NCBI RefSeq assembly: GCF_022271405.1
Contig: NZ_JAJNAL010000002.1
Coordinates: 62,001-126,000, forward strand
Direction: 5' to 3'
From: Rhodopseudomonas infernalis
GTDB lineage: Bacteria > Pseudomonadota > Alphaproteobacteria > Rhizobiales > Xanthobacteraceae
Length of the DNA: 64,000 nt
In this document: piece after piece, positions 34,521 to 56,107 of the stretch
Position numbering within the stretch: position 1 is the first letter of the stretch
Layout: every line of letters starts with the position of its first letter
The notes under the pieces: generated by a model
Told to the model about the DNA's origin: nothing
The model's input: the letters and a program-made list of their open reading frames with translations, nothing else
The model's database searches: none
Made by a program: the position numbers and the translations under genes

Positions 34521-36119
34521 GTGACGTCATCACAACATCCGACCACCCGTGTCGTCAGCGTCGCGGACATTCATGCAGCTTTGATCGAGGGGCGCGAAAT
34601 CGCCTTGCTCGATGTGCGGGAGGAGGGGCCGTTTTCGCGCGGCCATCCGCTGTTCGCGGTGCCGCTGCCGCTCAGCCGGATCGAACTGGATGTGCTCGAT
34701 CTGGTGCCACGCCTTGACGCGCCGATCGTGCTCTACGACGACGGCGAAGGCTTGGTCGCGCGTGCCGCGCATAAGCTGGCTTCGCTCGGCTACAGCAACG
34801 TCGCGCGGCTCGACGGTGGGCTCGATGGCTGGCGTCGCGCAGGCGGCGAAGTGTTCATCGACGTCAACGTGCCGAGCAAGGCGTTCGGCGAGTTGGTGGA
34901 GTCGCAGCGGCATACGCCGTCGCTGCCGGCCGCGGAGGTCGAGCGACTGATCAAGGATCAGGCCGACATCGTCGTGCTGGATTCGCGCCGCTTCGAGGAA
35001 TATCGCACGATGTCGATCCCGACCGGCACCAGCGTGCCGGGCGGCGAACTGGTGCTGCGACTGCAGGATGTCGCGCCGCGGCCGGAGACGACAGTGATCG
35101 TCAATTGCGCCGGACGGACGAGGTCGATCATCGGCACGCAATCGCTGATCAATGCTGGTGTTCCCAACAAGGTCTATGCGCTGCGCAACGGCACGATCGG
35201 CTGGACGCTGGCGGGATTGCAGGTGGAGCGCGGGGCGGACAAGCGGTTTCCGAAACTGTCCGAGACGGCGAGGGAGGTCGCGCGCGAGCGCGCGCAAGCG
35301 CTGGCGGATCGCGTCGGCGTACGAACCATCGATCGAGATACACTGGCTCGCTCGCGCAGCCAGCGCGACGTGACGTTGTACCTGCTCGACGTCCGCACGC
35401 CGGAGGAATTCGAAGCCGGGCATCTGGCCGGCTTTCGCTCTGCACCCGGCGGGCAGTTGGTGCAGGCGACCGACGAATGGGTCGGCGTGCGCCATGCCCG
35501 TCTGGTACTGGCCGACGATGACGGCGTGCGGGCGACGCTCGCCGCCTCGTGGTTGATCCAGATGGGTTGGCGCGACGTCCATGTCTTGCAGGGGCCGATC
35601 GCGGGCGACCTCGAGACAGGACCCCGGCCGCCACGCCGGCCGCCGTTACCAGACGCAGCGATCACGGCGATAACGCCCGCAGAACTTGCGGCTGAGCTGG
35701 ACTCTGCGATCGTGATCGATCTGGCGCCGAGCCCGCGTCATGCGGCCGGCCACATTCCGGGCGCCTGGTTCGCGGTGCGCGCACAACTGGCCGAGGCGTT
35801 GCACCGGCTGCGGCCGGAGGGGCGTCTGGTGCTGACGTCGTGGGACGGCGCGCTGGCGCACTACGCCGCTGCGGAGTTGTTGGCGCTGACCGATCGCCTG
35901 GCGGTGCTATTGGCAGGCGGCACGCAAGCCTGGGAAGCCGCCGGGCTGCCGCTCGAGTCCGGCATCGCACGGGCCGCGGTCGACGTCGATGACGTTTACA
36001 AGCGTCCCTACGAAGGCACCGACAATGCCGCGGCCGCGATGCAAGCCTATCTTGACTGGGAGTTCGGCCTGGTCGAGCAACTCGCCCGCGACGGCACCCA
36101 CGGTTTTCGCGTGCTCTGA
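34521..36119 (+). CDS. Four-domain rhodanese-like protein with one catalytic cysteine
   Basis: 532-residue protein with four rhodanese modules (about 10-110, 125-235, 265-365, 395-485), each with the DVR/DSR and HIPGA- or HxxG-type signatures (LLDVREEGPFSRGH, VVLDSRRFEEYRTM, LLDVRTPEEFEAGH, VIDLAPSPRHAAGH). Only module 2 keeps an active-site cysteine, C196 in NCAGRTRS. The equivalent loops of modules 1, 3 and 4 carry DDGEG, DDDGV and SWDGA. The likely role is transfer of sulfane sulfur by one site, with the rest acting as scaffold. It begins at a GTG 97 nt after the DUF1847 gene. No signal peptide is seen. Confidence 0.87.
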   Translation: MTSSQHPTTRVVSVADIHAALIEGREIALLDVREEGPFSRGHPLFAVPLPLSRIELDVLDLVPRLDAPIVLYDDGEGLVARAAHKLASLGYSNVARLDGGLDGWRRAGGEVFIDVNVPSKAFGELVESQRHTPSLPAAEVERLIKDQADIVVLDSRRFEEYRTMSIPTGTSVPGGELVLRLQDVAPRPETTVIVNCAGRTRSIIGTQSLINAGVPNKVYALRNGTIGWTLAGLQVERGADKRFPKLSETAREVARERAQALADRVGVRTIDRDTLARSRSQRDVTLYLLDVRTPEEFEAGHLAGFRSAPGGQLVQATDEWVGVRHARLVLADDDGVRATLAASWLIQMGWRDVHVLQGPIAGDLETGPRPPRRPPLPDAAITAITPAELAAELDSAIVIDLAPSPRHAAGHIPGAWFAVRAQLAEALHRLRPEGRLVLTSWDGALAHYAAAELLALTDRLAVLLAGGTQAWEAAGLPLESGIARAAVDVDDVYKRPYEGTDNAAAAMQAYLDWEFGLVEQLARDGTHGFRVL

Positions 36120-36253
36120 GCCGCGCCGGCGGCCGCGGGTCGCGCGTTCGACCACGCGGACTCGAGCGATCGACTCACAAATCTGCAAGTTGCGCCAGCC
36201 TAAGCATGCGATCAGGTCATCAATGGCCCTGCGTCGCGGACTACACCCGTCAA

Positions 36254-36294
36254 GATAACGGAGGCGTGTCCGTGATAACGGAAAAGCTGTCCGT
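36254..36294 (+). promoter_or_regulatory. Tandem 20-bp repeat with inverted arms upstream of Met-rich gene
   Basis: GATAACGGA occurs at 36254 and 36274, and TGTCCGT at 36267 and 36288. Each repeat can be read as an ACGGA...TCCGT inverted pair; the second extends to AACGGA-N7-TCCGTT. The ~20-bp period is two helical turns. This fits two adjacent regulator sites in the promoter of the methionine-rich protein gene. Confidence 0.5.
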
Positions 36295-36391
36295 TCGGGC
36301 GACGGCTCGGATGCTTTGTTGGAGGAAAGCGACGAGACGGTTTTGGTTGTCGTTGAGCGATTTGGAGCATGCTCGTACTTTTACTCGGGAC

Positions 36392-36411
36392 AGACGAAGT
36401 CAATTTCGTCT
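36392..36411 (+). promoter_or_regulatory. 7-bp inverted repeat in leader of Met-rich gene
   Basis: AGACGAA-GTCAAT-TTCGTCT is a perfect inverted repeat ending 19 nt before the ATG at 36431. In RNA it would form a hairpin just upstream of the GGAG ribosome-binding site. In DNA it could be an operator. Confidence 0.5.
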
Positions 36412-36430: not shown

Positions 36431-36784
36431 ATGAACACCGCGATGCAGATGATGCCCATGATGCCGATGATGGGTGGCATGAACCCGATGATGAATTCGA
36501 TGATGAGCCCCGTGATGATGAACCCGATGATGGCCGGGATGTCGATGATGGGGATGCCCGGCATGCCGATGCCAATGCCGATGCCGATGATGATGTGCAA
36601 GATGACCTGCACGATGTCGCCGGCCGGGATGATGACCTGCGAAATGGCGCCGATGGATCCGGCGATGAAGGACATGTTCATGCAGTGCTGCCAGACCATG
36701 ATGACCATGATGGGCAATGGCATGCCGATGATGATGAACTGCGGCGGCATGACGATGATGGGCATGATGCCCGCCAAGGCCTGA
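36431..36784 (+). CDS. Extremely methionine-rich small protein
   Basis: 117-residue protein with about 50 methionines (43%), plus six cysteines and many Pro and Gly. The first ~50 residues are M-M-x, M-P and M-N-P repeats. The second half adds a Cys pattern CKMTC, TCEM, QCCQ and NCGG. The ATG at 36431 has GGAG at a 6-nt spacing. A strong terminator follows 28 nt after the stop, so the gene is probably monocistronic. No signal peptide or confident family was recognised. Met/Cys motifs suggest binding of Cu(I) or another soft metal, but a methionine (sulfur) store or an oxidant sink is equally possible in this sulfur island. The antisense frame is also open but is hydrophobic nonsense created by the repeats. 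Confidence 0.72.
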   Translation: MNTAMQMMPMMPMMGGMNPMMNSMMSPVMMNPMMAGMSMMGMPGMPMPMPMPMMMCKMTCTMSPAGMMTCEMAPMDPAMKDMFMQCCQTMMTMMGNGMPMMMNCGGMTMMGMMPAKA

Positions 36785-36811
36785 CGTCTCGGTCTCTTGA
36801 TCAGCCAGAAG

Positions 36812-36834
36812 GGCCGGCGTTCGCCGGCCTTTTT
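36812..36834 (+). terminator. Intrinsic terminator after Met-rich gene
   Basis: GGCCGGCG and CGCCGGCC form a perfect 8-bp GC stem around a TT centre, followed by five T residues. It may also stop the convergent regulator transcript. Confidence 0.85.
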
Positions 36835-37768: not shown

Positions 37769-38746
37769 TCAAGAGCCGCGGGGCGTCCAGATCTTCACCG
37801 CGTCGGTCTTCACCTTGGTGGGGATCAGGCCTTCGGCGAAAAACACGTCCGCGATCTTCTGTTGCTCGGACAGGCCGTCGGGCGTGACCCGATCGACCGC
37901 GTAGGAGCGGTGGCTGTTGGCCTCTTCGACGATCGCGGGTTCGATGCTCCACAGTCCCGCGAGCAGAGCCGCCGCGTCCTTGGGATGTTGCTTGACCCAG
38001 CGCCCGGTCTCCGCGAGCTTTGCATAGATCACGTTCAGCACGTCGCTGCGCTTGTCGGCGAACGCCGCGGAGGCGAGATAATAGCGCTTGTAGCTGGCGA
38101 GCCCGTCGGAGCCGTCCGACAGAACGCGCGCGTTGGTCTGGTGACGCGCGCTGGTATAGAACGGGTCCCATGCCACCCAGGCATCGACATTGTTGCTGAC
38201 GAAGGCGGCGCGGCCATCGGCCGGCGCGAGATAAGCCGGGGTGATGTCCTTGAAGGTCAGCCCGGCCTTGGCGAGCGCCGCGAGCAGCAGATAGTGACTG
38301 CCGGCGCCCTTGGTCACCGCGACTTTCTTGCCTTTGAGGTCGGCGAGTGCGTGAATCGGCGATTTCTCGGCGACGAGAATTGCCTGTGCCGACGGCGATG
38401 CCTTCTCTTCGGCCACATAGGCGAGTTGCGCACCGGCCGCCTGCGCGAAGATCGGTACGGTGTCGGCAACATCCGCGCCGAAATCGACACTGCCGACATT
38501 GATCGACTCGAGCAGCGGCAGGCCGCTGGTGAATTCGTTCCAGGTCACCTTCACGCCGAGCGGCGCCAGCGCCTTTTCCAGTTCGCCGTTCGACTTCAGA
38601 ATCGCGATCAGCGTCGAGGAGCGCTGGTAGCCGATCCTGACCGTGTCCGACGCCTGCGCGAAGCCAGGTTGGCCGGAGAAGCCGATCGATGTGGCAGCCA
38701 AGGTCGACGCGAAGGCCGACAGCAGGATGGAACGTCGCGAGATCAT
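37769..38746 (-). CDS. Aliphatic sulfonate-type ABC binding protein (SsuA-like), orphan
   Basis: 325-residue periplasmic receptor. An N-terminal SRRS-type signal peptide ends near GFAQA. The SsuA fold shows TVRIGYQRSSTLIAILKSNG, ESINVGSVDFGADVADTVPI, LADLKGKKVAVTKGAGSHYL, and VDAWVAWDPFYTSA. These are typical of aliphatic-sulfonate receptors. No SsuB or SsuC gene is adjacent, so it must share another system's permease (for example 31945-33761) or act with distant genes. It is divergent from the sulfoacetate-type operon at 39161, which fits a sulfonate ligand. Confidence 0.87.
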   Translation of the reverse strand: MISRRSILLSAFASTLAATSIGFSGQPGFAQASDTVRIGYQRSSTLIAILKSNGELEKALAPLGVKVTWNEFTSGLPLLESINVGSVDFGADVADTVPIFAQAAGAQLAYVAEEKASPSAQAILVAEKSPIHALADLKGKKVAVTKGAGSHYLLLAALAKAGLTFKDITPAYLAPADGRAAFVSNNVDAWVAWDPFYTSARHQTNARVLSDGSDGLASYKRYYLASAAFADKRSDVLNVIYAKLAETGRWVKQHPKDAAALLAGLWSIEPAIVEEANSHRSYAVDRVTPDGLSEQQKIADVFFAEGLIPTKVKTDAVKIWTPRGS

Positions 38747-39160: not shown

Positions 39161-40612
39161 ATGACGAGTGCGATGGCGGACAACGAAACGTTCGTCCCGC
39201 AGGACCCCGATGTCATCGCAACCGTCGTCCGCCGAGCGCGGAAGGCTCAGGCTGCGTTCGCCGGCGTCAGCCAGGAGAGCGCCGACTCGGCGGTGCGCGC
39301 ACTCGCCTGGGCGATCTATCGGCCGGATCGCGCCCGCGAATTGGCGGCGCTCGCGGTGGCCGATACGGCGCTCGGCAATGTGCCGGACAAGATCGTGAAG
39401 AAGCAGCGCAAGACGTTCGGGACGCTGCGCGACCTGCTGCGGGTGAAATCCGTCGGGGTGATCGAGGAGGACGTTGCGCGTGGCCTCGTCAAATACGCCA
39501 AGCCGATCGGTGTCGTCGCGGCGCTGACGCCGTCGACCAATCCGGGCGCAACGCCGGTCAACAAGGCAATGATGGCGCTGAAGGGCCGCAACGCCATTAT
39601 CATCGCGCCATCGCCGCTCGGCTACGCCACGACCGCGCGCGCGGTCGAGCTGATGCGGGCGGAGCTTGCATCAATCGCGCTGGATCCGGATCTGGTGCAG
39701 GTGCTGCCGGCGCCGGTGACCAAGGAGGCGACCGACGCCTTGATGAAAGTGGTCGATCTCGTCGTGGTTACTGGATCCCAGGACAACGTCCGCCGTGCGG
39801 CCGCCAGCGGCACGCCGGCCATCGGCGTCGGCGTCGGCAACGTCCCGGTGATCATCGACGAAACGGCCGATCTCACAGAGGCGGCGGCGAAGATCGCGGC
39901 GTCGAAGACCTTCGACAACGCCACCTCCTGTTCGTCGGAGAACGCGCTGGTGATCGTCGATGCGGTCTACGATCAGGCGATCGATGCCTTGCGCCAGGCG
40001 GGCGCCTATCTCTGCAGCGCGGAGGAGAAGCAGCGGATCGAGAGTACGTTGTGGCAGGGCGGCAAGCTCGACCGCAATCTGATCGCGCGGGATGCTTCTG
40101 TGCTGGCGTCCGCGTTCGCGTTGCCGGCGGAAGCCGCATCGGCGCGGTTCTTCCTTGCCGAGGAGGTCGGAGTCGGAAAAGCGCATCCGCTGTCGGGCGA
40201 GAAGCTCGCGCTGGTGCTCACGGTGTATCGCGCTCGCGACTTCGCCGCCGCCAAGGCGATCGTGCACGACATTCTCGCTTACCAGGGGCGCGGCCATTCG
40301 GTCGGGCTGCATTCGCGCAACGCCGCGCGCGGCGATGAACTCGCGGCCGATCTCGACGTCGCGCGCGTCCTGGTGAATTTTGCCCACACCTTCGGCAATG
40401 GCGGCGGGTTCGACTCGGGTCTCAACTTCACGCTGTCGATGGGCTGCGGCTCCTGGCAGAAGAACTCGATCTCCGAAAATCTCAACTATCGCCACTTCCT
40501 CAACATCACTCATCTGGTGCGGGTGATCCCGGAGGATCGTCCGAGCGAGCAGGAGCTGTTCGGGCCGCATTGGGCGAAGATCGGCTACACGCCGCGCGGC
40601 GACGCGTCGTGA
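39161..40612 (+). CDS. Acylating sulfoacetaldehyde dehydrogenase (SauS-like)
   Basis: 483-residue CoA-dependent aldehyde dehydrogenase. The catalytic cysteine C257 lies in NATSCSSENALVI. Other marks are VGVVAALTPSTNPGATPVNK, the nucleotide loop region around VVTGSQDNVRRA, and a C-terminal HTFGNGGGFDSGLNFTLSMG segment found in SauS-type enzymes. It would reduce sulfoacetyl-CoA to sulfoacetaldehyde with NAD(P)H. The next genes encode a SucCD-like CoA ligase and Xsc, which together give sulfoacetate to acetyl phosphate plus sulfite. The reaction direction is inferred from this order. Confidence 0.85.
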   Translation: MTSAMADNETFVPQDPDVIATVVRRARKAQAAFAGVSQESADSAVRALAWAIYRPDRARELAALAVADTALGNVPDKIVKKQRKTFGTLRDLLRVKSVGVIEEDVARGLVKYAKPIGVVAALTPSTNPGATPVNKAMMALKGRNAIIIAPSPLGYATTARAVELMRAELASIALDPDLVQVLPAPVTKEATDALMKVVDLVVVTGSQDNVRRAAASGTPAIGVGVGNVPVIIDETADLTEAAAKIAASKTFDNATSCSSENALVIVDAVYDQAIDALRQAGAYLCSAEEKQRIESTLWQGGKLDRNLIARDASVLASAFALPAEAASARFFLAEEVGVGKAHPLSGEKLALVLTVYRARDFAAAKAIVHDILAYQGRGHSVGLHSRNAARGDELAADLDVARVLVNFAHTFGNGGGFDSGLNFTLSMGCGSWQKNSISENLNYRHFLNITHLVRVIPEDRPSEQELFGPHWAKIGYTPRGDAS

Positions 40613-40625
40613 TCCCGGGGCAGTG

Positions 40626-41756
40626 ATGATGAATCTGCTCGAATACGCCGCCAAGACTCTGGTGCTGACGCCTGCCGGCATCGCGACGCTGCCGGCGCGC
40701 CTTTGCGCGACGCCCGAGGAAGCCGCCGCTGCCGTCGCCGCGCTGGGACCGGCGATGGTCAAGGCGCAGGTGCCGACCGGCAAGCGCGGCAAGGCTGGCG
40801 GCATCCGGCCGGCAGATAGCGCCGAGCAGGCCGAAGCGGTCGCGCGCGACATCCTGGCGATGACCATCGATGGCCATCGGGTGTTCAGCGTGCTGGTCGA
40901 GCAGCGTGCAACTATCGCGCGGGAGTACTATGTCGCTGTGCTGTGCGACCCGGTGCGCCGCACCCCGCTCGTGCTGTTTTCTCCGGACGGCGGAGTCGAA
41001 ATCGAAGCCACGGCGGCGCGCGCGCCGGCGAGGTTGCGCCGCCACGAGGTCGATCTGCTGCACGGCTTTACGCGGGACGAGGCGGAGCAGTTCACGGCCG
41101 GGCTCGATCTGCACGACGCGCGCGGCGCAGTCGTCGATGTGCTGGTCCGGCTCTACGACGCCTTCGTTGGCAGCGACGCCGAACTGGTCGAGATCAATCC
41201 GCTGGCGGTGCTGGTGGACGGGCGTGTCGTTGCCCTCGATGCCAAGGTCACGCTCGATGACGCGGCCGCATTTCGTCAGCCGGTGCTCGCCGCCGCCGCG
41301 GCGGCCGAACCAGCGACCGAGCTGGAGCGGCGTGGCGCGGCCGCCGGTCTGAAATTCCTGCAGTTCGACGGCAATGTCGGCGTACTCGCCAACGGCGCCG
41401 GGCTGACCATGACGACGATGGACGTCATCCGGCATTACGGCGGCCGGCCGGCCAATTTCCTCGAGATCGGCGGCGAGGCGTACACCAAGTCGGAGATTGC
41501 ACTCGGGCTGGTGCTGGACAATCCCGGAGTGAAGAGTCTCGTCGTGAATTTTTGCGGCGCGTTCGCGCGGACCGATGTGATGGCCGCAGGCGTCGTGCAG
41601 GCCTGGCACAAATTGAATCCGTCGGTCCCGGTGTTCTTCTCGATTCACGGCACCGGCGAAGACGAGGCGATCCGGCTGGTGCGCGAGCAACTCGGGATCG
41701 AGCCGTTCGACCTGATGGAAGACGCGGTCAAGGCTGCCGTCGAGGCCGCGTCATGA
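40626..41756 (+). CDS. SucC-like ADP-forming acyl-CoA ligase beta subunit (probable sulfoacetate-CoA ligase)
   Basis: 376-residue ATP-grasp protein of the succinyl-CoA synthetase beta family. Features are LLEYAAKTLV at the start, MVKAQVPTGKRGKAGGI (ATP-grasp), the VEINPLAVLVDGRVVALDAK metal site, and a C-terminal ligase domain with GGRPANFLEIGGEA. It begins 13 nt after the dehydrogenase gene (three overlapping start codons at 40623-40629), and its stop overlaps the alpha-subunit start. A true TCA-cycle SucCD would normally sit with sucAB or mdh. This context points to sulfoacetate activation with ATP to ADP, as described for the SqwKL ligase of sulfoglycolysis. Confidence 0.82.
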   Translation: MMNLLEYAAKTLVLTPAGIATLPARLCATPEEAAAAVAALGPAMVKAQVPTGKRGKAGGIRPADSAEQAEAVARDILAMTIDGHRVFSVLVEQRATIAREYYVAVLCDPVRRTPLVLFSPDGGVEIEATAARAPARLRRHEVDLLHGFTRDEAEQFTAGLDLHDARGAVVDVLVRLYDAFVGSDAELVEINPLAVLVDGRVVALDAKVTLDDAAAFRQPVLAAAAAAEPATELERRGAAAGLKFLQFDGNVGVLANGAGLTMTTMDVIRHYGGRPANFLEIGGEAYTKSEIALGLVLDNPGVKSLVVNFCGAFARTDVMAAGVVQAWHKLNPSVPVFFSIHGTGEDEAIRLVREQLGIEPFDLMEDAVKAAVEAAS

Positions 41757-42652
41757 TCATCTTCCGCAAGCAGCACCGCGTTCTGGTGCAGGGGATCACC
41801 GGCAAGCAGGGCTCGTTCTGGACCGAGAAGATGATTGGCGCCGGCACCCGCATCGTCGCCGGCGTCAATCCGAAGCGGGCCGGCGACATCTATCTCGATG
41901 CGCCGATCTATGCGTCGGCGCAACGCGCGATGGCCGAGACGCCGTTCGACGTCGCGGTGATGTTCATCCCGCCGGCGCTGGCGAAGCATGCGGCGCTCGA
42001 CGCGATCGAGGCCGGCGCGAAGCTGCTGGTGGTGCTGACCGAGCACATCCCGATTCACGACGTGATGGCGATCCATGCGGTGGCGCGGATCAACGGGACT
42101 CGCATTCTTGGGCCGAACACGGCCGGACTGGTGACGCCGGGCGAAGGCTTCGTCGGCATCATGCCCGGACACAACGACACCATCTTCCGCCCCGGTGCGA
42201 TCGGCGTGGTGTCGCGCAGCGGCAGCCTCGGCACGCTGGTGTCGCTGAATCTCACCCGCGCCGGGCTCGGGCAGTCCGCCTTCATCGGCATCGGCGGCGA
42301 TCCGATGATCGGCACCACGACGCGTGACGCTCTCGAAGCACTCGATCGCGATCCGCGGACGCAGGCGGTCGTCCTGGTCGGCGAGATCGGCGGCGCGATG
42401 GAGGAAGACGCGGCGATTCACGCGGCGGGAATGTCGAAGCCGGTAGTTGCCTTCATCGCCGGCCGCGCGGCGCCGCCCGGCAAGAAGATGGGCCACGCCG
42501 GCGCCATCGTCGGCGCGTCCGGCGGCAGCTACGCGGGCAAGCGCAATGCGCTCGAGCGTGCGGGAGTGACCGTCGTCGACACCCCGGCGGAGATCCCGGA
42601 CGCTGTTCGGCGTCGATTGGCCGAGCGGCCACCGCAAGTCGCAAGTCACTGA
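41753..42652 (+). CDS. SucD-like acyl-CoA ligase alpha subunit (probable sulfoacetate-CoA ligase)
   Basis: 299-residue partner of the preceding protein. The CoA-binding Rossmann domain starts VLVQGITGKQGSFW. The phosphohistidine is H248 in KKMGHAGAIVGAS, and TRILGPNTAGLVTPGE and GVVSRSGSLGTL are typical. The start overlaps the beta-subunit stop by 4 nt (ATGA), implying stoichiometric translation. It differs from canonical SucD in the substrate loop region, consistent with a different acid, but the substrate is inferred from context. Confidence 0.84.
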   Translation: MIIFRKQHRVLVQGITGKQGSFWTEKMIGAGTRIVAGVNPKRAGDIYLDAPIYASAQRAMAETPFDVAVMFIPPALAKHAALDAIEAGAKLLVVLTEHIPIHDVMAIHAVARINGTRILGPNTAGLVTPGEGFVGIMPGHNDTIFRPGAIGVVSRSGSLGTLVSLNLTRAGLGQSAFIGIGGDPMIGTTTRDALEALDRDPRTQAVVLVGEIGGAMEEDAAIHAAGMSKPVVAFIAGRAAPPGKKMGHAGAIVGASGGSYAGKRNALERAGVTVVDTPAEIPDAVRRRLAERPPQVASH

Positions 42653-42732
42653 CATCCGGGGCGCAACGCAAGCTGCTGCGTGAGCTGCCATCGCCAATCT
42701 TCTCGAATCCAGCCGACCAACAGGAACCGACC

Positions 42733-44502
42733 ATGAAGATGACCACCGAAGAAGCCTTCGTCAAAGTGCTGCAGCGCCACGGCATCCAGCACGCTTTCGG
42801 GATCATCGGTTCGGCCTTCATGCCGATCTCGGATCTGTTTCCGAGGGCCGGCATCATCTTCTGGGATTGTGCGCACGAGGGCAACGCGGCGCTGATCTGC
42901 GACGGCTTCACCAGGTCGACCGGGAAGATCGCGATGCTGGTTGCGCAGAACGGGCCGGGTATCACCAATTTCGTCACCTCGGTGAAGACGGCCTACTGGA
43001 ATCACACGCCGATGCTGCTGGTAACGCCGCAGGCCGCCAACAAGACGATCGGGCAGGGTGGCTTTCAGGAAGTCGAACAGATGGCGCTGTTTCGCGACAT
43101 GGTCTGCTATCAGGAAGAGGTGCGCGATCCGTCGCGGATCGCCGAGGTGCTGAACCGCGTGATCGGCAAGGCGATCCGTGGCTCGGCGCCGGCGCAGATT
43201 AACGTGCCGCGCGATTTCTGGACCCATGTGATCGACATCGAACTGCCGCAGATCGTTAGCTTCGAGCGCCCGAGCGGTGGCCCCGCGGCGATCGCCGAGG
43301 CGGCGCGGCTGCTGTCGGGTGCGCAATTTCCGGTGATCCTGGCCGGCGCAGGCGTGGTGATCGGCGATGCGATTGCTGACACGGTGACGCTCGCCGAGCG
43401 GCTCGACGCGCCGGTGTGCTCCGGCTATCAGCACAATGACAGCTTCCCCGGCAGCCACCCGCTGGCGCTCGGCCCGCTCGGCTACAACGGCTCCAAGGCC
43501 GCGATGGAGGTGATCGCCAGGGCCGACGTCGTGCTGGCGCTCGGCACACGGCTCAATCCGTTTTCGACCCTGCCGGGCTATGGCATCGACTACTGGCCGA
43601 ACAACGCCAAGCTGATTCAAGTGGACATCAACCCGGATCGGATCGGCCTCACCAAGCCGGTGAGTGTCGCGATCGCTGGCGATGCCGCCCAGGTGGCGCG
43701 GCAGATATTGGCGGAGCTCGCACCGCACGCCGACGATTCCGGCCGCGACGCGCGCAAGGCGATCGTTCATCAGGCGAAGTCGGCGTGGCTGCAGGCGTTG
43801 TCGGGGATCGATCACGAGGACGACGACGACGGTACCAATTGGAACGAACGCGCACGGACGCGCGATCCGGAGCGGATGTCGCCGCGCCAAGCCTGGCGCG
43901 CGATCCAGGACGGTTTGCCGAAGCAGGCGATCATCTCGTCCGACATCGGCAACAATTGCGCGATCGGCAACGCCTATCCGACGTTCGACGAGGGCCGCAA
44001 ATATCTCGCGCCGGGCCTGTTCGGCCCCTGCGGCTATGGCTTTCCGGCGATCGTTGGCGCCAAGATCGGCCAGCCCGACGTGCCCGTGGTCGGCTTCGCC
44101 GGCGACGGTGCCTTCGGCATCTCGATGAGCGAGATGGGCTCGATCGGTCGCAAGCCGTGGCCGGCGATCACCATGGTGATCTTCCGCAACTATCAATGGG
44201 GCGCCGAGAAGCGCAATACCACGCTGTGGTACGACGACAATTTCGTCGGCACCGAACTCAATCCCAATCTCAGCTACGCTCGCGTGGCGGAAGCTTGCGG
44301 GCTGAAGGGCGTGGTTGCGCGAACCGCCGGCGACCTGACCGCGGCGATCAGCACGGCCTGCGCGGCGCAGGACGACGGCGTCACCACCTTCATCGAAGTG
44401 ATCCTGAATCAGGAACTCGGCGAGCCGTTCCGTCGCGACGCGATGAAGAAGCCGGTGGTCGTGGCGGGCATCGATCCAGCGGACATGCGTCCGCAGCGAT
44501 GA
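42733..44502 (+). CDS. xsc: Sulfoacetaldehyde acetyltransferase
   Basis: 589-residue thiamine-diphosphate enzyme that splits sulfoacetaldehyde with phosphate into acetyl phosphate and sulfite. The N-terminal domain opens TTEEAFVKVLQRHGIQHAFG with the catalytic glutamate region WDCAHEGNAALICDG. The TPP motif is GDGAFGISMSEMGSIGR followed by IFRNYQWGAEKRN. Xsc-specific segments include YQHNDSFPGSHPLALGPLGY and IDYWPNNAKLIQVDINPDRIG. It is the last step of the sulfoacetate route. No phosphotransacetylase or sulfite exporter gene is adjacent, so sulfite is probably assimilated. ATG preceded by an 80-nt gap. Confidence 0.93.
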   Translation: MKMTTEEAFVKVLQRHGIQHAFGIIGSAFMPISDLFPRAGIIFWDCAHEGNAALICDGFTRSTGKIAMLVAQNGPGITNFVTSVKTAYWNHTPMLLVTPQAANKTIGQGGFQEVEQMALFRDMVCYQEEVRDPSRIAEVLNRVIGKAIRGSAPAQINVPRDFWTHVIDIELPQIVSFERPSGGPAAIAEAARLLSGAQFPVILAGAGVVIGDAIADTVTLAERLDAPVCSGYQHNDSFPGSHPLALGPLGYNGSKAAMEVIARADVVLALGTRLNPFSTLPGYGIDYWPNNAKLIQVDINPDRIGLTKPVSVAIAGDAAQVARQILAELAPHADDSGRDARKAIVHQAKSAWLQALSGIDHEDDDDGTNWNERARTRDPERMSPRQAWRAIQDGLPKQAIISSDIGNNCAIGNAYPTFDEGRKYLAPGLFGPCGYGFPAIVGAKIGQPDVPVVGFAGDGAFGISMSEMGSIGRKPWPAITMVIFRNYQWGAEKRNTTLWYDDNFVGTELNPNLSYARVAEACGLKGVVARTAGDLTAAISTACAAQDDGVTTFIEVILNQELGEPFRRDAMKKPVVVAGIDPADMRPQR

Positions 44503-47392: not shown

Positions 47393-47635
47393 ATCACCAT
47401 GGTCGATACGGCGACCGCCTCGCGTTGTCGTCACGCGCCGGACTCGCATCGATCGAGAAACGACTTCCACGCGATCATCGGTAGTTGAAACAACTCTGCT
47501 GCGATCGTGCCCGGTGAGCAGGCTTCTTGCTGAACTAATCCGAGCATATTGACGACGATCAGCAGGGAGCATCACCTTGCGCAGGGCCCGTCTCGGCGTG
47601 GCGATCCGCAGCGGCGGAAAATCGAGGGACAGATC

Positions 47636-49033
47636 GTGAGCCTGGCAGAATTCGCCCAGCCGAAGGGCCGTGCGCCGACGGGCGTCATCGACTTGATCGG
47701 CAACACGCCTCTGGTTTATCTGGCGCGGCTCGATACGGGCCCATGCCGCTTGTTCGCCAAGCTCGAAGGCCAGAATCCCGGCGGATCGATCAAGGATCGT
47801 CCGGCGCTGGCGATGATCGAGGCATTCGAGCGCAGCGGAGAATTGCGTCCCGGCGGCACCTTGGTCGAGGCGACCGCCGGCAACACCGGCCTCGGTCTGG
47901 CGTTGATCGCGTCCCTCAAGGGCTATCGGCTCATTCTGGTGATCCCGGACAAGATGAGCCGGGAGAAGGTGCTCCACCTCAAGGCGATGGGCGCCGATGT
48001 GGTGATGACCCGGTCCGATGTCGGCAAAGGGCATCCGGCGTACTATCAGGACCTCGCTCGCAAGATTGCAGCGGAAACACCCGGCGCCGTCTTCGTCAAT
48101 CAGTTCGCCAACCCTGCCAATCCGCTGGCGCATGAGTCTGGCACCGGGCCGGAGATCTGGGAGCAGATGGGCCGCCGGGTCGATGCCGTGGTGTGCGGCA
48201 TCGGGTCCGGCGGGACGTTGACCGGCATCGGCCGGTTTTTCGCGCGGGCTTCGCCGTCGACCGAGATCATCCTGGCCGATCCGAAGGGATCGGTGCTGGT
48301 CGATGTGGTCGAAGGGCGCAAGCCCGGCGAGGTCGGAAGCTGGCTGGTCGAAGGCATCGGCGAAGACTTCGTCCCGGACAATGCCGATCTGCGGTTGGTC
48401 ACGCGCGGCTACACCGTCACCGACGCGGAATCGTTTCATGCCGCGCGAGAGCTGCTGGGCCGCGAAGGAATTCTGGCCGGTTCGTCGTCGGGAACGCTGC
48501 TCGCGGCGGCGTTACGCTATTGCCGGGAGCAGGACCGCCCGAAGCGGGTCGTTACACTGCTGCCGGACGGCGGCAACAAGTATCTGTCCAAGATGTTCAA
48601 CGACACCTGGATGGCCGATCAGGGCTTCCTCGCGCGCCGTCACGACGGCGATCTGCGCGATCTGATCGTGCGTCGCCACGACGAAGGCGCATCGATCACG
48701 GTCGGTCCCGACGACACCCTCAATTTCGCGTATTCGCGGATGAAGCTTTACGAGGTGTCGCAGCTGCCGGTCCTGGTCGACGATCAGGTCGTCGGGATCA
48801 TCGATGAATCGGATCTGCTGATGGCGACGATCGGCAATCCGGCCAAATTCGCCGAGCCGGTGCATCTGGCGATGAGCAAACGCGTCGAAACGGTGCAGTC
48901 GTCAGCACCGTTCGAAAGCCTGATGCCGGTGTTCGATCGCGGCCATGTCGTGGTCGTGGTCGACGGTGTTCGCTTTCTCGGCCTGATCACCCGGATCGAC
49001 CTGATCAACCACCTCCGCAGCAAGGTTCACTGA
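47636..49033 (+). CDS. Cystathionine beta-synthase with Bateman (CBS) domains
   Basis: 465-residue PLP enzyme joining serine (or O-acetylserine) and homocysteine. The catalytic domain (about 15-320) has the PLP lysine in NPGGSIKDRP, substrate loop EATAGNTGLGLALI, and phosphate-binding GIGSGGTLTGIG. Two CBS domains (about 345-460) follow, ending VVVVDGVRFLGLITRIDL; they may bind SAM or adenine nucleotides. The GTG at 47636 has GAGGGA upstream, and upstream codons lack family similarity. The next gene, 14 nt away, encodes the paired gamma-family enzyme, giving a complete reverse transsulfuration pair. Confidence 0.88.
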   Translation: MSLAEFAQPKGRAPTGVIDLIGNTPLVYLARLDTGPCRLFAKLEGQNPGGSIKDRPALAMIEAFERSGELRPGGTLVEATAGNTGLGLALIASLKGYRLILVIPDKMSREKVLHLKAMGADVVMTRSDVGKGHPAYYQDLARKIAAETPGAVFVNQFANPANPLAHESGTGPEIWEQMGRRVDAVVCGIGSGGTLTGIGRFFARASPSTEIILADPKGSVLVDVVEGRKPGEVGSWLVEGIGEDFVPDNADLRLVTRGYTVTDAESFHAARELLGREGILAGSSSGTLLAAALRYCREQDRPKRVVTLLPDGGNKYLSKMFNDTWMADQGFLARRHDGDLRDLIVRRHDEGASITVGPDDTLNFAYSRMKLYEVSQLPVLVDDQVVGIIDESDLLMATIGNPAKFAEPVHLAMSKRVETVQSSAPFESLMPVFDRGHVVVVVDGVRFLGLITRIDLINHLRSKVH

Positions 49034-49047
49034 CAAGGTTCAACGCA

Positions 49048-50220
49048 ATGGATAAGTCGACCAACGTCCGGACACGAGGCGTCAACACCCGCGCCGTGCA
49101 CGGCGGCCAGCAATTCGATCCGGCGACCGGCGCGGTGACGACGCCGATCTACGCCACCTCGACATTCGCGCAGTCGGCGCCGGGCGTGCACAAAGGGTAC
49201 GAATACGCGCGATCACAGAACCCGACACGGGCGGCATTCGAAGCGGCGATCGCCGACGCCGAGCGCGGCATCGCCGGTTTCGCGTTCGCCTCTGGTCTCG
49301 CGGCGGAAGCAGCGCTGCTCGAACTGGCCGAACAGGGCAGCCACGTCGTCGCCTCCGATGATCTGTATGGCGGAAGCTGGCGGCTGTTCCATCGCGTCCG
49401 CAGCTATTCGGCCGGTCTCACGATCACTCACGTCGACCCCGCGAATCTCGACGCGCTCCGCGCCGCGCTCCGCCCGAACACGGCTTTCATCTGGATCGAG
49501 ACGCCGAGCAATCCGACATTGCGGCTGGCGGACCTCGAAGCGATCGCCGCGATCGGGCGCGAGCACAAGGTGCTCACCGTGGTCGACAACACGTTCGCCT
49601 CGCCGGCGGTGCAACGTCCGCTCGAGCACGGCATCGACATCGTGGTTCACTCGGTCACCAAATATATCGGCGGCCATTCCGACATCGTCGGCGGCGCCAT
49701 CGTGGTGCGCGATCCAGAACTGATCCAGAAGCTGCAATTCCTGCAGAACGCCACCGGCGGCATCCTCGATCCGTTTTCGAGCTTCCTGGCGCTGCGCGGG
49801 ATCAAGACGTTGCCGTTGCGGCTGCAGCGTCACAACGCCAACGCGCTGGCGGTGGCGCACTGGCTCGAAGCGCATCCGAAGGTCGAGCGCGTGGTTTATC
49901 CCGGCCTCGCCAGCCATCCCCAGCATGCATTGGCGACGCGCCAAATGGATGGCGGCGGTGGCATGGTCGCGGCGTATCTCAAGGCGGACGATCAGCAGAC
50001 CGTGGCGGTGCTCAGCCGGTTCAAGCTGTTCGCGCTGGCGGAGAGTCTGGGCGCGGTCGAGAGTCTGGTTGGGCAGCCGTGGAGCATGAGCCATGCGTCG
50101 CTGCCGGAGCCCGATCGCCTGGCTCGCGACATCCACCCAAATCTGATCAGGCTGTCGATCGGCATCGAAGACGCCGACGACCTGATCGACGATCTCGAAC
50201 AGGCGCTCGCGGTGCTCTGA
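49048..50220 (+). CDS. Cystathionine gamma-lyase / Cys-Met metabolism PLP enzyme
   Basis: 390-residue Cys/Met-metabolism enzyme. The PLP lysine is in HSVTKYIGGHSDIVGG. Other marks are TPIYATSTFAQ, EYARSQNPTRAAFE, and IETPSNPTLRLADLEAIA. Paired with the upstream CBS gene it most likely cleaves cystathionine to cysteine, ammonia and 2-oxobutyrate. Sequence alone cannot exclude cystathionine gamma-synthase activity. Confidence 0.86.
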   Translation: MDKSTNVRTRGVNTRAVHGGQQFDPATGAVTTPIYATSTFAQSAPGVHKGYEYARSQNPTRAAFEAAIADAERGIAGFAFASGLAAEAALLELAEQGSHVVASDDLYGGSWRLFHRVRSYSAGLTITHVDPANLDALRAALRPNTAFIWIETPSNPTLRLADLEAIAAIGREHKVLTVVDNTFASPAVQRPLEHGIDIVVHSVTKYIGGHSDIVGGAIVVRDPELIQKLQFLQNATGGILDPFSSFLALRGIKTLPLRLQRHNANALAVAHWLEAHPKVERVVYPGLASHPQHALATRQMDGGGGMVAAYLKADDQQTVAVLSRFKLFALAESLGAVESLVGQPWSMSHASLPEPDRLARDIHPNLIRLSIGIEDADDLIDDLEQALAVL

Positions 50221-50239
50221 ATGCCGGTCCTCGCTTCCG

Positions 50240-51286
50240 CTAATAGGCGGAGGCGAGGCTCGGCTCGATCGCGAAATCCTCGAGCAGATCGGCGTGGTGC
50301 CGGCGCGCCACGTCGGGATGCGAGCGCAGCCGGCCCTTGAGGTAGTTGCGGCCGACTTCGCGGAACAGTGGATTGTTGGGATCCTGCGTGATGCCCCGCG
50401 CGTGCGGCGCGAGCGAAGGCGGCAGCGACAACACAGGCACGGAAGCGTCGAGCCGGGCGCCGAGGAAAAACGCGACCGACAGCCGATCGCTGCCGGCCGG
50501 CGGCGTCACCACGCGATGCACGTTGGCGCGCAGCGTGCCGTTCGAGGCGAGTTCGAGAATCTCGCCGATGTTCACGACGAACGAACCGGGCAGCGGCGGC
50601 GCATCGATCCAGCCGTCGTCGGTCTCGACCTGCAGGCCGGCGACCGTGTCTTGCAGAAGGATGGTGACAAAGCCGGAATCCTTGTGCGCGCCGACGCCCT
50701 GATCGCTCTCGGTCGCATCGCGGCCGGGATAGCGGATGATCTTGATAAGCTGGTGCGGTGATGGCGCGTGGATCGGTTCGAATACGTCCTCGGGCTGGTC
50801 GAGCGCGGCAGCGAACACCCGCAGCACCTTGATCGCGAGCGCGGTCACCTCCAGCTGATAGCGCAGCAGCAGCGGCTTCAATTCCGGCAAGGCGTCCGGC
50901 CATTGGTTGGGACCCTGCAGACGTGTCCACGCCGGCGCCGACCGGCTGAACGGGAAGGCCTCACGCTCGGCGCCGATGTCGAGCTGTTCGCGCCAATCTG
51001 CCGCGCCACGCGTGAACTCGCGCCCGGCGCGGGTGTAGCCGCGGAAATGTGGGGAGTTGACCATTTCGATCGCGAGCTTGTTGGCATCGGGAAGCGAGAA
51101 GAAGTTGCGTGATGCGGTCACCACGTCGCGGATCAGCCGGTCGGAGATTCCGTGACCGACCAGATAGAAAAAGCCGGGGCCGAAAGCCGCATCGCGGACA
51201 TCTCGCAGGAATGCTTCGCGCCGGGCGTCGCCTGCGTCGAACCGGGTGAGGTCGAGGACAGGGAGCGTTCGGTATGAGCTGGGCAT
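50240..51286 (-). CDS. Isopenicillin-N-synthase-like Fe(II)/2-oxoglutarate dioxygenase
   Basis: 348-residue non-haem iron enzyme. The iron triad is the HKD of GAHKDSGFVTILLQD plus the later histidine in ANVHRVVTPP. The oxoglutarate-binding R-x-S is DRLSVAFF. The N-terminal DIOX_N domain includes GPGFFYLVGHGI. The ATG at 51286 has GGAGG 8 nt upstream. It is convergent with the transsulfuration pair. Aerobic dioxygenases in a nitrogenase-like cluster are unexpected; it might open an oxic branch, for example oxidising an organosulfur compound. Substrate unknown. Confidence 0.85.
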   Translation of the reverse strand: MPSSYRTLPVLDLTRFDAGDARREAFLRDVRDAAFGPGFFYLVGHGISDRLIRDVVTASRNFFSLPDANKLAIEMVNSPHFRGYTRAGREFTRGAADWREQLDIGAEREAFPFSRSAPAWTRLQGPNQWPDALPELKPLLLRYQLEVTALAIKVLRVFAAALDQPEDVFEPIHAPSPHQLIKIIRYPGRDATESDQGVGAHKDSGFVTILLQDTVAGLQVETDDGWIDAPPLPGSFVVNIGEILELASNGTLRANVHRVVTPPAGSDRLSVAFFLGARLDASVPVLSLPPSLAPHARGITQDPNNPLFREVGRNYLKGRLRSHPDVARRHHADLLEDFAIEPSLASAY

Positions 51287-51868
51287 CGGCGGGCCTCCGG
51301 TTGGGATCATTGGCGCAAATGATGATGGCGTCCTACACGACTGTCGAGCCGCCGCTGAAAATAGCATCGTCCATGCTTTTCATGCGTCGGCCCGTGCTTA
51401 GTTTGTGTCGCCCATCTGGGTGAAGATGGAGAGTCATTCCCGCTCGGCCGATACGGCGGATGCGGCGAGGTCGCCGCCATCGCCCTGATCGCCTGCAGCG
51501 GGGCGCTGGCAGGTCCATCGAGCAAGACGGTGACTACGAACGTACCAGAGAACGCAATGAGTGATGCCTGCGGGCGGAAATGCGAATCTCATTTTCCGTC
51601 GCGTGCCGAATTTGGACGGTCCTTCTCGCGCTGCTGATTGAAAACGTCGGAAACGGTCTCTAGCATTGAAGGTGGTACTTAACGGACGACGTAACTGCGT
51701 GATCAGCAGCATGAAGGCAGCGTGATGGTGGTCGTTCTCGTCGCCATCGTGCAGAGCGTCCGATTGCTCGGCGACGCCGCGGCACGCGCCGTCAACCATC
51801 GGATCGCACGCGGCAAGCGATCGACCTCCTGACCGTAACGCATCGCCGCCAACCGAAGGACATCGACC
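51287..51868. other. 580-nt control region before the O-acetylhomoserine sulfhydrylase-mar genes
   Basis: Apart from a possible 35-codon ORF (51725-51832, listed separately), no gene was recognised. It must hold the promoter for the sulfhydrylase and nitrogenase-like genes. No SAM-II riboswitch consensus, common before metX/metZ-type genes in related bacteria, could be found, and no convincing sigma-54 site was seen. Confidence 0.4.
51725..51832 (+). CDS. Possible 35-residue peptide upstream of O-acetylhomoserine sulfhydrylase
   Basis: An ATG with AAGG upstream opens 35 codons: a hydrophobic start (MVVVLVAIVQSVRLL) and a basic tail ending RGKRST. It stops 36 nt before the sulfhydrylase ATG. 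It could be a leader peptide or chance; composition alone supports it. Confidence 0.25.
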   Translation: MVVVLVAIVQSVRLLGDAAARAVNHRIARGKRSTS

Positions 51869-53182
51869 ATGTCGCTGCAAACCGTCCAACCGCTTCATCC
51901 TGGCAACATTGATACGCTCGCGCTGCACGGCGGTTCGTTTCGCGCCGATCCGGCGACCGGCGCGACGCAGGTGCCGATCTATCAGAGTACGTCGTTCGAT
52001 CTGCAGAGCACCGAACGCGCCGACCGTCTGGTGAACTTCGAGGAGTTCGGGTTCGTCTATTCGCGGATCGGCAATCCGACCTCGCATGTGCTGGAGGAGC
52101 GTCTCGCGGCGATCGAGGGCGGTGCGGCGGCGCTGGCGCTGGCGTCGGGGCAGGCGGCCGTCGCGCTGTCGGTGCTGACGCTGGTGCAGGCCGGCGACAA
52201 CATCGTCACCGGCACCGATCTCTATGGCGGTACCTGGAATTTCTTCGCCAACCGGCTGGAGCGGTTCGGCATCGAGGCGCGCTTCGTCGATCCGGCGGAT
52301 CCTGAGGCGTTCCGCGCGGCGACGGACGACCGCACCAGATTGTACTTCGGCGAGACGCTGCCGAACCCGAAGCTCAACGTGTTCCCGATCCGCGAAGTCG
52401 CCGACATCGGCCGCAGCTTCGGCATCCCGCTGATCATCGACAACACCGCGGCGCCACTGCTGGCGCGGCCGATCGACCACGGCGCATCGATCGTGGTGCA
52501 TTCGGCGACCAAATATATCGGCGGCCACGGCACCACCATCGGCGGTGTCATCATCGACAGCGGCTTGTTCCCGTGGGAGGAGTTTGCCGACCGGCACCGG
52601 CTGATCACCGGCCCGGACCCGTCCTACAACGGCCGCAACTGGCCGGACATCGCGCGCCCATTTGGGCCGGTGGCTTACGCCTTCGCGGCGCGCGCCGGTC
52701 TGCTGCGCGACCTCGGCCCGGCGCTGTCGCCGCAGAATGCGTTTCAGCTGATTCAGGGGCTGGAGACGCTTCCGCTACGCATCCGGCAGCAGACCGCCAA
52801 CGCGGCCAAGGTGGCGGACTATCTGTCGAAGCATCCCAAAGTCGAGACGGTGATCTATCCGGGCTTGCAGAGCGGCGATGCGCGCCGACGCGCCGACACC
52901 TATCTGCAAGGCGGCTATGGCGCGCTGGTCGGCTTCGAACTCCCCGGCGGCTTCGCGGCCGGCCGCCGCTTCATCAACTCGCTGAAGCTGCTGTTCCACG
53001 TCGCCAATATCGGTGACGCGCACAGCCTGGCGATCCATCCGTCGTCGACCACGCATGCGCAACTGGCGCCGGAGAAGCAGCTCGCGGCCGGCGTCACGCC
53101 CGGCTACGTGCGGCTGTCGGTCGGCATCGAGAGCGTCGACGACATCATCGCCGATATCGCGCAGGCGCTCGACCAGGCCTGA
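51869..53182 (+). CDS. O-acetylhomoserine sulfhydrylase (MetY-type)
   Basis: 437-residue PLP enzyme that replaces the acetyl group of O-acetylhomoserine with sulfide or methanethiol. Signatures are IDTLALHGGSFRADPATGA, VPIYQSTSFDL and the PLP lysine HSATKYIGGHGTTIGGVI. The length and insert (LFPWEEFADRH) fit O-acetylhomoserine (thiol)-lyases rather than cystathionine enzymes. It lies 27 nt upstream of the NifD-like gene on the same strand. In the methylthio-alkane reductase pathway this enzyme class captures released methanethiol as methionine, so its position is functionally telling. Confidence 0.9.
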   Translation: MSLQTVQPLHPGNIDTLALHGGSFRADPATGATQVPIYQSTSFDLQSTERADRLVNFEEFGFVYSRIGNPTSHVLEERLAAIEGGAAALALASGQAAVALSVLTLVQAGDNIVTGTDLYGGTWNFFANRLERFGIEARFVDPADPEAFRAATDDRTRLYFGETLPNPKLNVFPIREVADIGRSFGIPLIIDNTAAPLLARPIDHGASIVVHSATKYIGGHGTTIGGVIIDSGLFPWEEFADRHRLITGPDPSYNGRNWPDIARPFGPVAYAFAARAGLLRDLGPALSPQNAFQLIQGLETLPLRIRQQTANAAKVADYLSKHPKVETVIYPGLQSGDARRRADTYLQGGYGALVGFELPGGFAAGRRFINSLKLLFHVANIGDAHSLAIHPSSTTHAQLAPEKQLAAGVTPGYVRLSVGIESVDDIIADIAQALDQA

Positions 53183-53209
53183 TCCATCCTGCAGGAGGCG
53201 AGGCGCGCC

Positions 53210-54715: not shown

Positions 54716-54727
54716 GAAAGACCAAGC

Positions 54728-56107
54728 ATGCTGTCTCCCGTCACCGACAATCTCGACGCTTCCGGCGCGTTCTGCAGCTCGCTGGGCGCGATCGAGCAGG
54801 TTCGCTACGGCTGTAGTCTGGGCGCGCTCGCGAGCGTGATCGCAATTCCTGGTGCGGTGCCCATCACGCATTGCGGACCGGGCTGCGCCACCAAGCAATT
54901 CCACGCGCTGTCCGGAATCAACGCCTATCAGGGCGGCGAATTCCACGTGCCGAGCAGCAATCTCGGCAACCAGGAAGTGATCTTCGGCGGCGCCGATCGC
55001 CTCGACGAACTGATCCGGTCGACGCTGAAGGTGATGCAGGCCGATCTGTTCGTGGTGCAGTCCGGCTGCATCCCGGGGCTGGTCGGCGACGACGTCGGCA
55101 GCGTCGTGCGGAGCTATCAGAAACAGGGCGTGCCGATCGTTTTCGCCGAGACCAGCGGCTATCGCGGCAATAATTTCACGGGCCACGAAACCGTCATTCG
55201 CGCTATCATCGACCAGTTCGTTGACACCAACGATGCGCCGCTGCAGCACGGCCTGGTCAATGTCTGGTCGTTGCTGCCCTATCAGAATCCGTTCTGGCGC
55301 GGCGATCTCACCGAGATCAGGCGGATCCTCGAAGGCATCGGGCTTCAGGTCAACATCCTGTTCGGCCCGTCGTCGGCCGGCGTCGAGGAGTGGCGCGCGA
55401 TTCAGCGTGCGCAATTCAATCTGGTCCTGTCGCCGTGGCTCGGCCTCGCCACCGCCGCGCATCTCGAAGACCTTTACGGCCAGCCGTTCCTGCACGTGCC
55501 GACGATCCCGATCGGCGCCAAGGCCACCAGCGCCTTCCTGCGCCAGGTGGTCGATTTCGCAGGTCTCGATCGCGCCCGTGCGGAGGTCTTCATCGCGCAG
55601 GAGGAGAAGGAGCACTACGTCTATCTCCGCGACTTCGCCTCGTTCTACGCCGGCTGCACCAGCCAGTATCGGCTGCCGTCGACAGCGATCGTGGTCAGCG
55701 AAAGCGCCTACAATCTCGCGGTGGCGAGTTTCCTGGTTGAGCAGCTCGGTCTCAATCCGGGTCCGATGGTGATCAGCGAGAATCCGCCGGCGGATTTTCG
55801 CGAGACGATCCAGAAGCAATATCGCGCGCTGGCCGATAACACGGGTGCCGAGGCTCTGTTCGAGCAGGACGGTCACCGGATTCACGAATTGATCCGGCAG
55901 GCCGATTTCACGGGCGAATTGCCGATCGTGTTCGGCTCGACCTGGGAGGCGGCGCTGGCGGACAAGATCGGTGCGCCGCTGGTCGAGATCGGCTATCCGT
56001 GCACCGACGAGGTCGTGCTGTCGCGCGCCTATGTCGGCTATCGCGGCGCGCTGGCGCTGATCGAGCGCACCTATACGACGGTGGTTCGCGCCAGCACGAT
56101 GGGGTAG
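54728..56107 (+). CDS. marK: Nitrogenase-like beta subunit, probable methylthio-alkane reductase MarK
   Basis: 459-residue NifK-family partner, beginning 12 nt after MarD. Cysteines C29, C53 (HCGPGC) and C114 (SGCIPGLVGDD) have the spacing of the NifK P-cluster ligands. FGGADRLDELI and the TSGYRGNNFTGHE segment match the beta-subunit pattern. It lacks the long NifK N-terminal arm. Together the pair keeps all six P-cluster cysteines, suggesting an 8Fe-type cluster rather than the single 4Fe4S site of BchNB-like proteins. No reductase (NifH/MarH-like) gene follows; the next gene is convergent. Confidence 0.77.
   Translation: MLSPVTDNLDASGAFCSSLGAIEQVRYGCSLGALASVIAIPGAVPITHCGPGCATKQFHALSGINAYQGGEFHVPSSNLGNQEVIFGGADRLDELIRSTLKVMQADLFVVQSGCIPGLVGDDVGSVVRSYQKQGVPIVFAETSGYRGNNFTGHETVIRAIIDQFVDTNDAPLQHGLVNVWSLLPYQNPFWRGDLTEIRRILEGIGLQVNILFGPSSAGVEEWRAIQRAQFNLVLSPWLGLATAAHLEDLYGQPFLHVPTIPIGAKATSAFLRQVVDFAGLDRARAEVFIAQEEKEHYVYLRDFASFYAGCTSQYRLPSTAIVVSESAYNLAVASFLVEQLGLNPGPMVISENPPADFRETIQKQYRALADNTGAEALFEQDGHRIHELIRQADFTGELPIVFGSTWEAALADKIGAPLVEIGYPCTDEVVLSRAYVGYRGALALIERTYTTVVRASTMG

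Follow-up and report, generated by a model that had tools for sequence, protein, structure and literature searches.

The locus described here raises the question of what a bacterium might use a protein for in which 50 of 117 residues are methionine. Its gene lies in a stretch of 64,000 nucleotides from Rhodopseudomonas infernalis, which we refer to as the window, and consists of exactly 117 codons and a stop. The figures of about 50 methionines and six cysteines given in an initial annotation of this DNA proved exact, and 15 prolines and 11 glycines accompany them. The product has a mass of 12.9 kDa, of which sulfur makes up 13.9%. Three functions had been offered for it, namely a copper buffer, a methionine or sulfur reserve and an oxidant sink. 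None of these is proven, but among them the reserve agrees best with conservation, an adjacent regulator and the surrounding genes, and we put the probability that the protein is a sulfur-status-controlled, protein-bound reserve of methionine and cysteine at roughly 0.45. The features of the locus are compiled in Table 1.

Table 1. Features of the methionine-rich locus and its surroundings (positions within the window)
Feature	Position	Strand	Remarks
Rhodanese (sulfurtransferase)	34521..36119	+	PF00581, 4 stretches
Two tandem operator-like sites, 20-bp period	36250..36281	+	36250-36261 with one mismatch, 36270-36281 exact CCRNNATNNYGG
Conserved TTGTTGGAGGAAAGCGA element	36316..36332	+	From related upstreams
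Promoter-like TTGAGC-17-TACTTT	36353..36381	+	From layout comparison; not consensus sigma-70
Leader hairpin	36392..36411	+	From folding
Methionine-rich protein, 117 aa	36431..36784	+	Variable Met-rich tail (residues 1-53), conserved core (about 54-117), from homologue alignments
Intrinsic terminator	36807..36834	+	Separates the two convergent genes; GC stem, T run
XRE-HTH and cupin regulator, SutR-like, 208 aa	36869..37495	-	Convergent with the methionine-rich gene, 84-bp gap
Small protein, 71 aa	37488..37703	-	IDLxxYRxxR motif; C-terminal half hydrophobic; gene overlaps that of the regulator at the latter's start; without a match in Pfam or NCBIfam
SsuA-family sulfonate-binding protein	37769..38746	-	TIGR01728, 200.7 bits (cut-off 163.5)
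SauS acylating sulfoacetaldehyde dehydrogenase, two CoA-ligase-like subunits, Xsc sulfoacetaldehyde acetyltransferase	39161..44502	+	
Cysteine-synthase-like gene, two Cys/Met PLP-enzyme-like genes, two nitrogenase-component-1-like genes	47549..56107	+	

The methionine-rich protein family

A lack of conservation among relatives would have refuted the reading of the initial annotation, but homologues were found in samples of the family, the order and the phylum, which, together with that of the class, overlap. Of the 296 genomes searched from the family, 19 gave a match to the gene, which was strong in 16 (E ≤ 1e-9), while the three weak ones (G054, G002 and G148; E 1.1e-4 to 8.6e-4) were dropped as compositional. 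It is also present in 11 of 397 genomes of the order sample and in 8 of 398 of the phylum sample; the single occurrence among 162 genomes of the class sample is the window's own. A contig scan confirmed ten relatives, among them those of Rhodopseudomonas palustris, R. rhenobacensis, Nitrobacter, Bradyrhizobium, an Afipia MAG, Rhodovulum sp. PH10 and Siculibacillus. The distribution is patchy even within the window's genus (5 of 16 genomes), and a tandem form with two cores occurs in five genomes of a distant family of the same phylum (f87). Carriage by mobile elements or phages was considered and rejected, since neither the window protein nor a two-core relative had a match on plasmids, and no relative was confirmed on viral contigs.

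Given its low sequence complexity, the ATG-rich stretch could be imagined to be a DNA or RNA element or a product of chance, and not a protein at all. We find this hardly credible, since purifying selection acts at the codon level (core dN/dS of 0.09–0.37 in 15 pairs from six sequences), the core is conserved across distant groups, the upstream layout is conserved too, and one frame alone is strongly methionine-rich. In a six-frame scan of the window, the richest 60-residue stretch of the protein contains 48% methionine, whereas the runner-up among open stretches, be it antisense to the gene or elsewhere, reaches 11.7%. In the reading frame, 91% of the third positions of non-methionine codons are G or C. 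On the strength of codon-level selection and conservation, a chance or non-coding stretch was rejected, and so was an RNA element, with no Rfam match within 28000–46000. We conclude from these sequence comparisons that the protein represents a genuine, conserved coding gene family. Its start was placed at 36431 and a longer in-frame start at 36206 was rejected, because the extension would contain the conserved upstream sites and the leader.

No family match for the protein was obtained in NCBIfam or in Pfam (no family at E ≤ 1), in agreement with the initial annotation, which had recognised none, and a search of the open-licence literature found no description of such a protein. On present evidence, the system is unlike any known to us; the methionine-rich protein matches no family tested, and its regulator, which is described below, belongs to an already known kind.

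Pooled over 23 members, methionine makes up 42% of the residues and is about seven times as common as cysteine (6.2%), while isoleucine, leucine and valine together account for 0.9% and histidine for 0.08% (the loci are related and not independent, which makes p-values too small for these counts as well as for the marker, upstream-site and hairpin counts given below). Likewise, in the 30 columns with a methionine consensus across 26 core sequences, 633 of 778 letters are methionine and 18 are isoleucine, leucine or valine. Ordinary proteins exchange methionine freely with leucine, isoleucine and valine; the scarcity of these three here, at less than 1% of residues, argues for selection on sulfur-bearing residues, beyond greasiness alone.

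According to the alignments, the core of about 65 residues keeps cysteine, methionine, glycine and proline at fixed positions. Cys60 and Cys104 are invariant in an alignment of 15 sequences, Cys70 and Cys86 are at least 90% conserved, and a CC pair is present in most members. The tail, which is predicted to be disordered, varies in length and is methionine-rich in every aligned member; it is almost missing in one (L009). AlphaFold predicts a β-hairpin (56–62 and 68–74) and a helix (77–95) with modest confidence and a low-confidence tail, at a poor mean pLDDT of 51 and 53 for the models of the full protein and of the core alone. A known fold was rejected, as the best Foldseek match of these models has an E-value of 5.3, and a profile of the core found no PDB sequence at E ≤ 10. 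No export signal was seen on inspection of the N-termini by eye, and the protein is presumably cytosolic.

The fixed positions of the core bear on the main rival to a reserve, a cytosolic soft-metal buffer, in which the conserved cysteines and the methionine thioethers would serve as ligands for Cu(I), Ag(I), Hg(II) or Cd(II), with the tail tuning affinity or capacity. Methionine and cysteine are soft ligands, and both the position-by-position conservation of the core and the invariant or nearly invariant cysteines with the CC pair would suit such a site. However, metal binding does not require a near-total replacement of isoleucine, leucine and valine by methionine, histidine is nearly absent, methionine-only Cu(I) sites usually lie outside the cytosol, and both the regulator and the gene context, in which no family for copper handling was listed (see below), indicate sulfur. 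We therefore regard the buffer as somewhat unlikely. The protein resembles copper storage proteins (Csp) and metallothioneins in being small and rich in sulfur ligands, but these both rely on cysteine. For the window protein, neither a Pfam family nor a PDB match was found at the thresholds above. Csp forms a four-helix bundle with a cysteine-lined core; the low-confidence models of the window protein show a hairpin and one helix. Metallothioneins contain about 20–30% cysteine in CxC and CxxC clusters, compared with the 6.2% observed over the 23 members.

The facing regulator

The gene had initially been described as a unit of its own. Upstream sites and a terminator do belong to it, but a convergent XRE-cupin regulator and a small gene ahead of that regulator had been overlooked. 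In 27 of the 31 loci compared for context, such a regulator is encoded on the other strand, 42–163 bp downstream of the methionine-rich gene, and a facing regulator at a distance of about 335 bp in a further genome (G786) brings the total to 28 of 31; it was missed by the crude longest-ORF method used for calling neighbouring genes and recovered by a separate search. In G096, the regulator is found elsewhere in the genome and not beside the methionine-rich gene, and in G801, where the methionine-rich gene sits at a contig edge, it is found on a different contig. In G046 (locus L007, R. rhenobacensis), the methionine-rich gene and both upstream sites are present and the regulator is absent.

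The two genes also co-occur. Among the 296 genomes of the family, 16 carry the methionine-rich gene, 16 the regulator and 15 both (15 of the 17 with either), and among the 397 genomes of the order, the same 11 carry the methionine-rich gene and a regulator scoring above 300 bits. There, a gap separates the paired regulators (at least 304 bits) from ten lower-scoring relatives (at most 255 bits), all of which belong to one family (f2). Furthermore, all 11 genomes of the window's genus that lack the methionine-rich gene also lack the regulator (E ≤ 1e-30), and the two genes stay linked within the order as well as in the distant f87. One genome (G114) has the regulator and no methionine-rich gene within the 10.6 kb read. 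From its sequence neighbourhood, the methionine-rich gene is thus evidently one half of a conserved convergent pair, and a module of these two genes is well supported. As to the small gene ahead of the regulator, a motif search found a short gene with IDLxxYRxxR in this place in 17 of 43 loci scanned, the window included. The window's own genome contains a second, weaker relative of the regulator (G000:C87:95411-95956; 109.8 bits), and nothing of comparable score was seen in three other genomes searched.

This near one-to-one co-occurrence, the conserved core and the linkage retained in the order and in f87 would all suit a regulatory partner, that is, a protein made in dependence on the methionine supply that binds or inhibits the convergent regulator, or that reports the availability of methionine through the translation of its 50 ATG codons. 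We give this explanation a small chance, since the enrichment of methionine over the whole protein far exceeds the needs of a binding partner, the tail is free to vary in length yet remains methionine-rich, and G046 keeps the gene without the regulator.

The regulator combines an N-terminal Cro/C1-type HTH domain (PF01381, 1.1e-14) with a C-terminal cupin domain (PF07883, 1.9e-10). Over both, it aligns with SutR (YdcN) of E. coli (hhalign; 99.9% probability, E 2.6e-32, 39% identity over 161 columns), and we classify it on this homology as SutR-like. SutR is reportedly tied to sulfur utilisation, to go by the title of a 2015 paper; its neighbours in E. coli K-12 are ydcO and rlhA, with no methionine-rich gene there, unlike at the window locus. 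The best solved match over HTH and cupin is 1y9q, an XRE-cupin regulator of Vibrio cholerae (E 2.4e-34). H144, E150 and H185 of the window regulator are invariant in 21 sequences and align with H, E and H in the cupin of 1y9q; we take them to be the cupin metal-binding residues. In the literature, the cupin pocket of 1y9q is described as holding D-methionine (PMC7901475), which may be incidental to crystallisation, zinc is listed for the same structure (PMC2684688), and XRE-cupin factors of Pseudomonas are called local, highly specialised repressors (PMC7901475).

Nine of the ten lower-scoring f2 relatives adjoin cysT-cysW-cysA-cysB and sbp, and the tenth (L132) adjoins sbp only. NCBIfam gene names were obtained for two of these loci: CysT, CysW and CysB above their cut-offs, with CysA through the sulfate ATPase subfamily, at L124, and a sulfate-binding protein at L127. 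No methionine-rich gene was found within the 10.2–10.6 kb read around each of the ten. In G096, it is the regulator itself that lies beside sbp-cysT-cysW. From this gene context, we infer that the regulator may sense a sulfur compound or govern sulfur genes. At three f2 loci (L124, L125 and L127), a very short hydrophobic reading frame lies between the SutR-like gene and cysT.

Sulfur genes and control region

The claim that the gene resides in a sulfur-metabolism island holds, with SsuA, a rhodanese, SauS, Xsc, cysteine and methionine enzymes and nitrogenase-like subunits encoded in the window. SauS, the CoA-ligase-like pair and Xsc stand in a row and likely form a sulfoacetate degradation cluster. 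Beyond the window, sulfur markers were found near 18 of 31 foreground loci, which include near-duplicates and short contigs, as opposed to 0 of 40 control regions, which we spread over 10 of the genomes at round-number positions; the marker panel was drawn from the foreground loci, in families chosen after these had been inspected, and no locus was searched with queries from its own group. Fourteen of 22 representative loci have such a marker, 13 of the 31 have none by a query from another locus group, and a loose threshold produced three weak matches in the controls. The neighbours above NCBIfam cut-offs comprise SsuA, SsuD, MetQ/NlpA, CysK, cystathionine gamma-synthase, NtaA/DmoA and Xsc, and one below its cut-off is a mercaptopyruvate sulfurtransferase. 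By contrast with these, neither a copper-ATPase or heavy-metal-associated family nor an Msr family is among the neighbour families listed (25 of 74 and 25 of 76), which stem from the 152 of 231 neighbour ORFs put to Pfam, regulators and antisense-looking ORFs being left out; the first two of these absences count against a soft-metal buffer.

Several further genes of these neighbourhoods are worth recording. The gene at 33755–34423, flanked by that of an ABC transporter and that of the rhodanese, encodes a DUF1847 protein. A Cys/Met PLP-enzyme-like gene is followed by the two nitrogenase-component-1-like genes (51869–56107), and a NifB-like gene below the curated cut-off lies at 45883–46926; together, they resemble the layout of methylthio-alkane reductase. 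These genes are about 15–19 kb away from the methionine-rich gene, and similar ones adjoin the members at L064 and L065, with the nitrogenase-component-1-like genes beside L064 being 70–80% identical to those of the window. L003 features a NifH-like gene below the nifH cut-off.

The neighbourhood also bears on the notion of an oxidant sink, whose methionines would absorb peroxide or hypochlorous acid and be repaired by methionine sulfoxide reductase, like MrpX/BcrX. These are small, methionine-rich bacterial proteins as well, and MrpX is said to be periplasmic, in the title of a 2015 paper. The very high methionine content would suit this role, and methionine-rich sacrificial peptides, BcrX and MrpX, have been proposed in bacteria; BcrX shares its operon with an msrPQ-like pair, and an ECF sigma factor drives it (PMC8315932). 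Compared with this description, the window locus differs: its methionine-rich gene is flanked by a rhodanese gene and an XRE-cupin regulator and not by msrPQ-like or ECF sigma genes. No Msr family is among those listed for the neighbours of its relatives, and by eye no export signal is visible. We consider an oxidant sink quite improbable.

Upstream of the gene, the repeated promoter element noticed in the initial annotation corresponds to a palindrome-like 12-bp site, CCRNNATNNYGG, with a copy near -180 from the ATG (one mismatch) and another near -160 (exact). Exact matches occur in 14 of 25 related upstreams, compared with 3.7% of random windows, and GGAGGAAA, a part of TTGTTGGAGGAAAGCGA, is equally found in 14 of the 25, compared with 0.42% of random windows; the set comes without L006 and the f87 loci and retains two near-duplicates. 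A promoter-like TTGA..-TA...T layout is present in nine of the 25 upstreams, and a strict consensus scan of 36100–37800 detected no consensus sigma-70 promoter. The arrangement of the control region as a whole suggests activation from upstream, in contrast to the mostly repressing relatives of the regulator. The regulator is a candidate for binding the tandem sites; given that G046 keeps both sites without it, another factor may bind them. A genome-wide regulon under this operator was rejected as unsupported, since the window's own genome contains three exact copies of one strict form, CCRWGATAACGG, one of them at the methionine-rich gene.

The leader hairpin described earlier stands in part. 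The segment does fold, and 17 of 23 loci contain a stem of this strength somewhere in the 52 nt preceding the start, compared with 25% of random windows. Shuffled versions of the leader are nonetheless just as stable (z -0.3). Downstream, the fold of 36796–36840 (-26.9 kcal/mol, z -5.2) bears out the strong terminator; the consensus scanner did not list it.

A putative reserve of reduced sulfur

The reserve that we favour would be part of a sulfur module of two or three genes, comprising the regulator, the methionine-rich gene and perhaps the small upstream gene. The SutR-type XRE-cupin regulator would sense the sulfur status, probably by binding a sulfur amino acid, or a ligand related to one, at the metal site of its cupin, and control the gene opposite it. 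The presumably cytosolic product of that gene contains sulfur amino acids at about the highest density possible in a small folded protein. With sulfur in good supply, this reserve would be produced from a transcript of its own, to be broken down once sulfonates, sulfate or volatile organic sulfur become scarce. Known bacterial reserves hold carbon, nitrogen (cyanophycin) and phosphorus (polyphosphate), or elemental sulfur in the form of globules, and we know of no protein-bound methionine store in bacteria. In a more general and more tentative form, bacteria could possess a genetically encoded store of reduced sulfur, namely a cytosolic protein with methionine in place of nearly all its hydrophobic residues, which is built up and mobilised under an XRE-cupin sulfur sensor of its own. 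In maize, the methionine-rich beta- and delta-zeins act as a methionine sink (PMC3420316); zeins are plant seed storage proteins, whereas the window protein is bacterial, matches no Pfam family and has a putative storage role.

What speaks most strongly against a pure store is that the core is conserved position by position. A metal site or a binding partner would explain this better, as a pure store should need no fixed cysteine, methionine, glycine or proline positions. Further points against the reserve are the methionine-rich gene without a regulator in G046, the regulator without a nearby methionine-rich gene in G114 and in the ten f2 relatives, the 13 of 31 loci without a sulfur marker, the lack of a genome-wide regulon and the poor confidence of the AlphaFold models. 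If the reserve is real, it would account for the facing gene pair at sulfonate and other sulfur-acquisition loci, give the little-studied SutR-type regulators a defined target, and constitute a natural ultra-high-methionine protein. Should the protein bind metal instead, it would still be of a new kind by virtue of its nearly all-methionine set of hydrophobic residues. Since the gene is paired with a regulator dedicated to it, the question of its function can be tested directly.

A minor observation concerns the C-terminus, which is alanine in 18 of 23 members, compared with 21% of neighbouring proteins. This would weakly fit a C-terminal degradation tag and regulated proteolysis. The f87 forms end in CCTC and not in alanine, and this terminus is common to the tandem two-core proteins at four loci of that family (L042, L044, L045 and L046).
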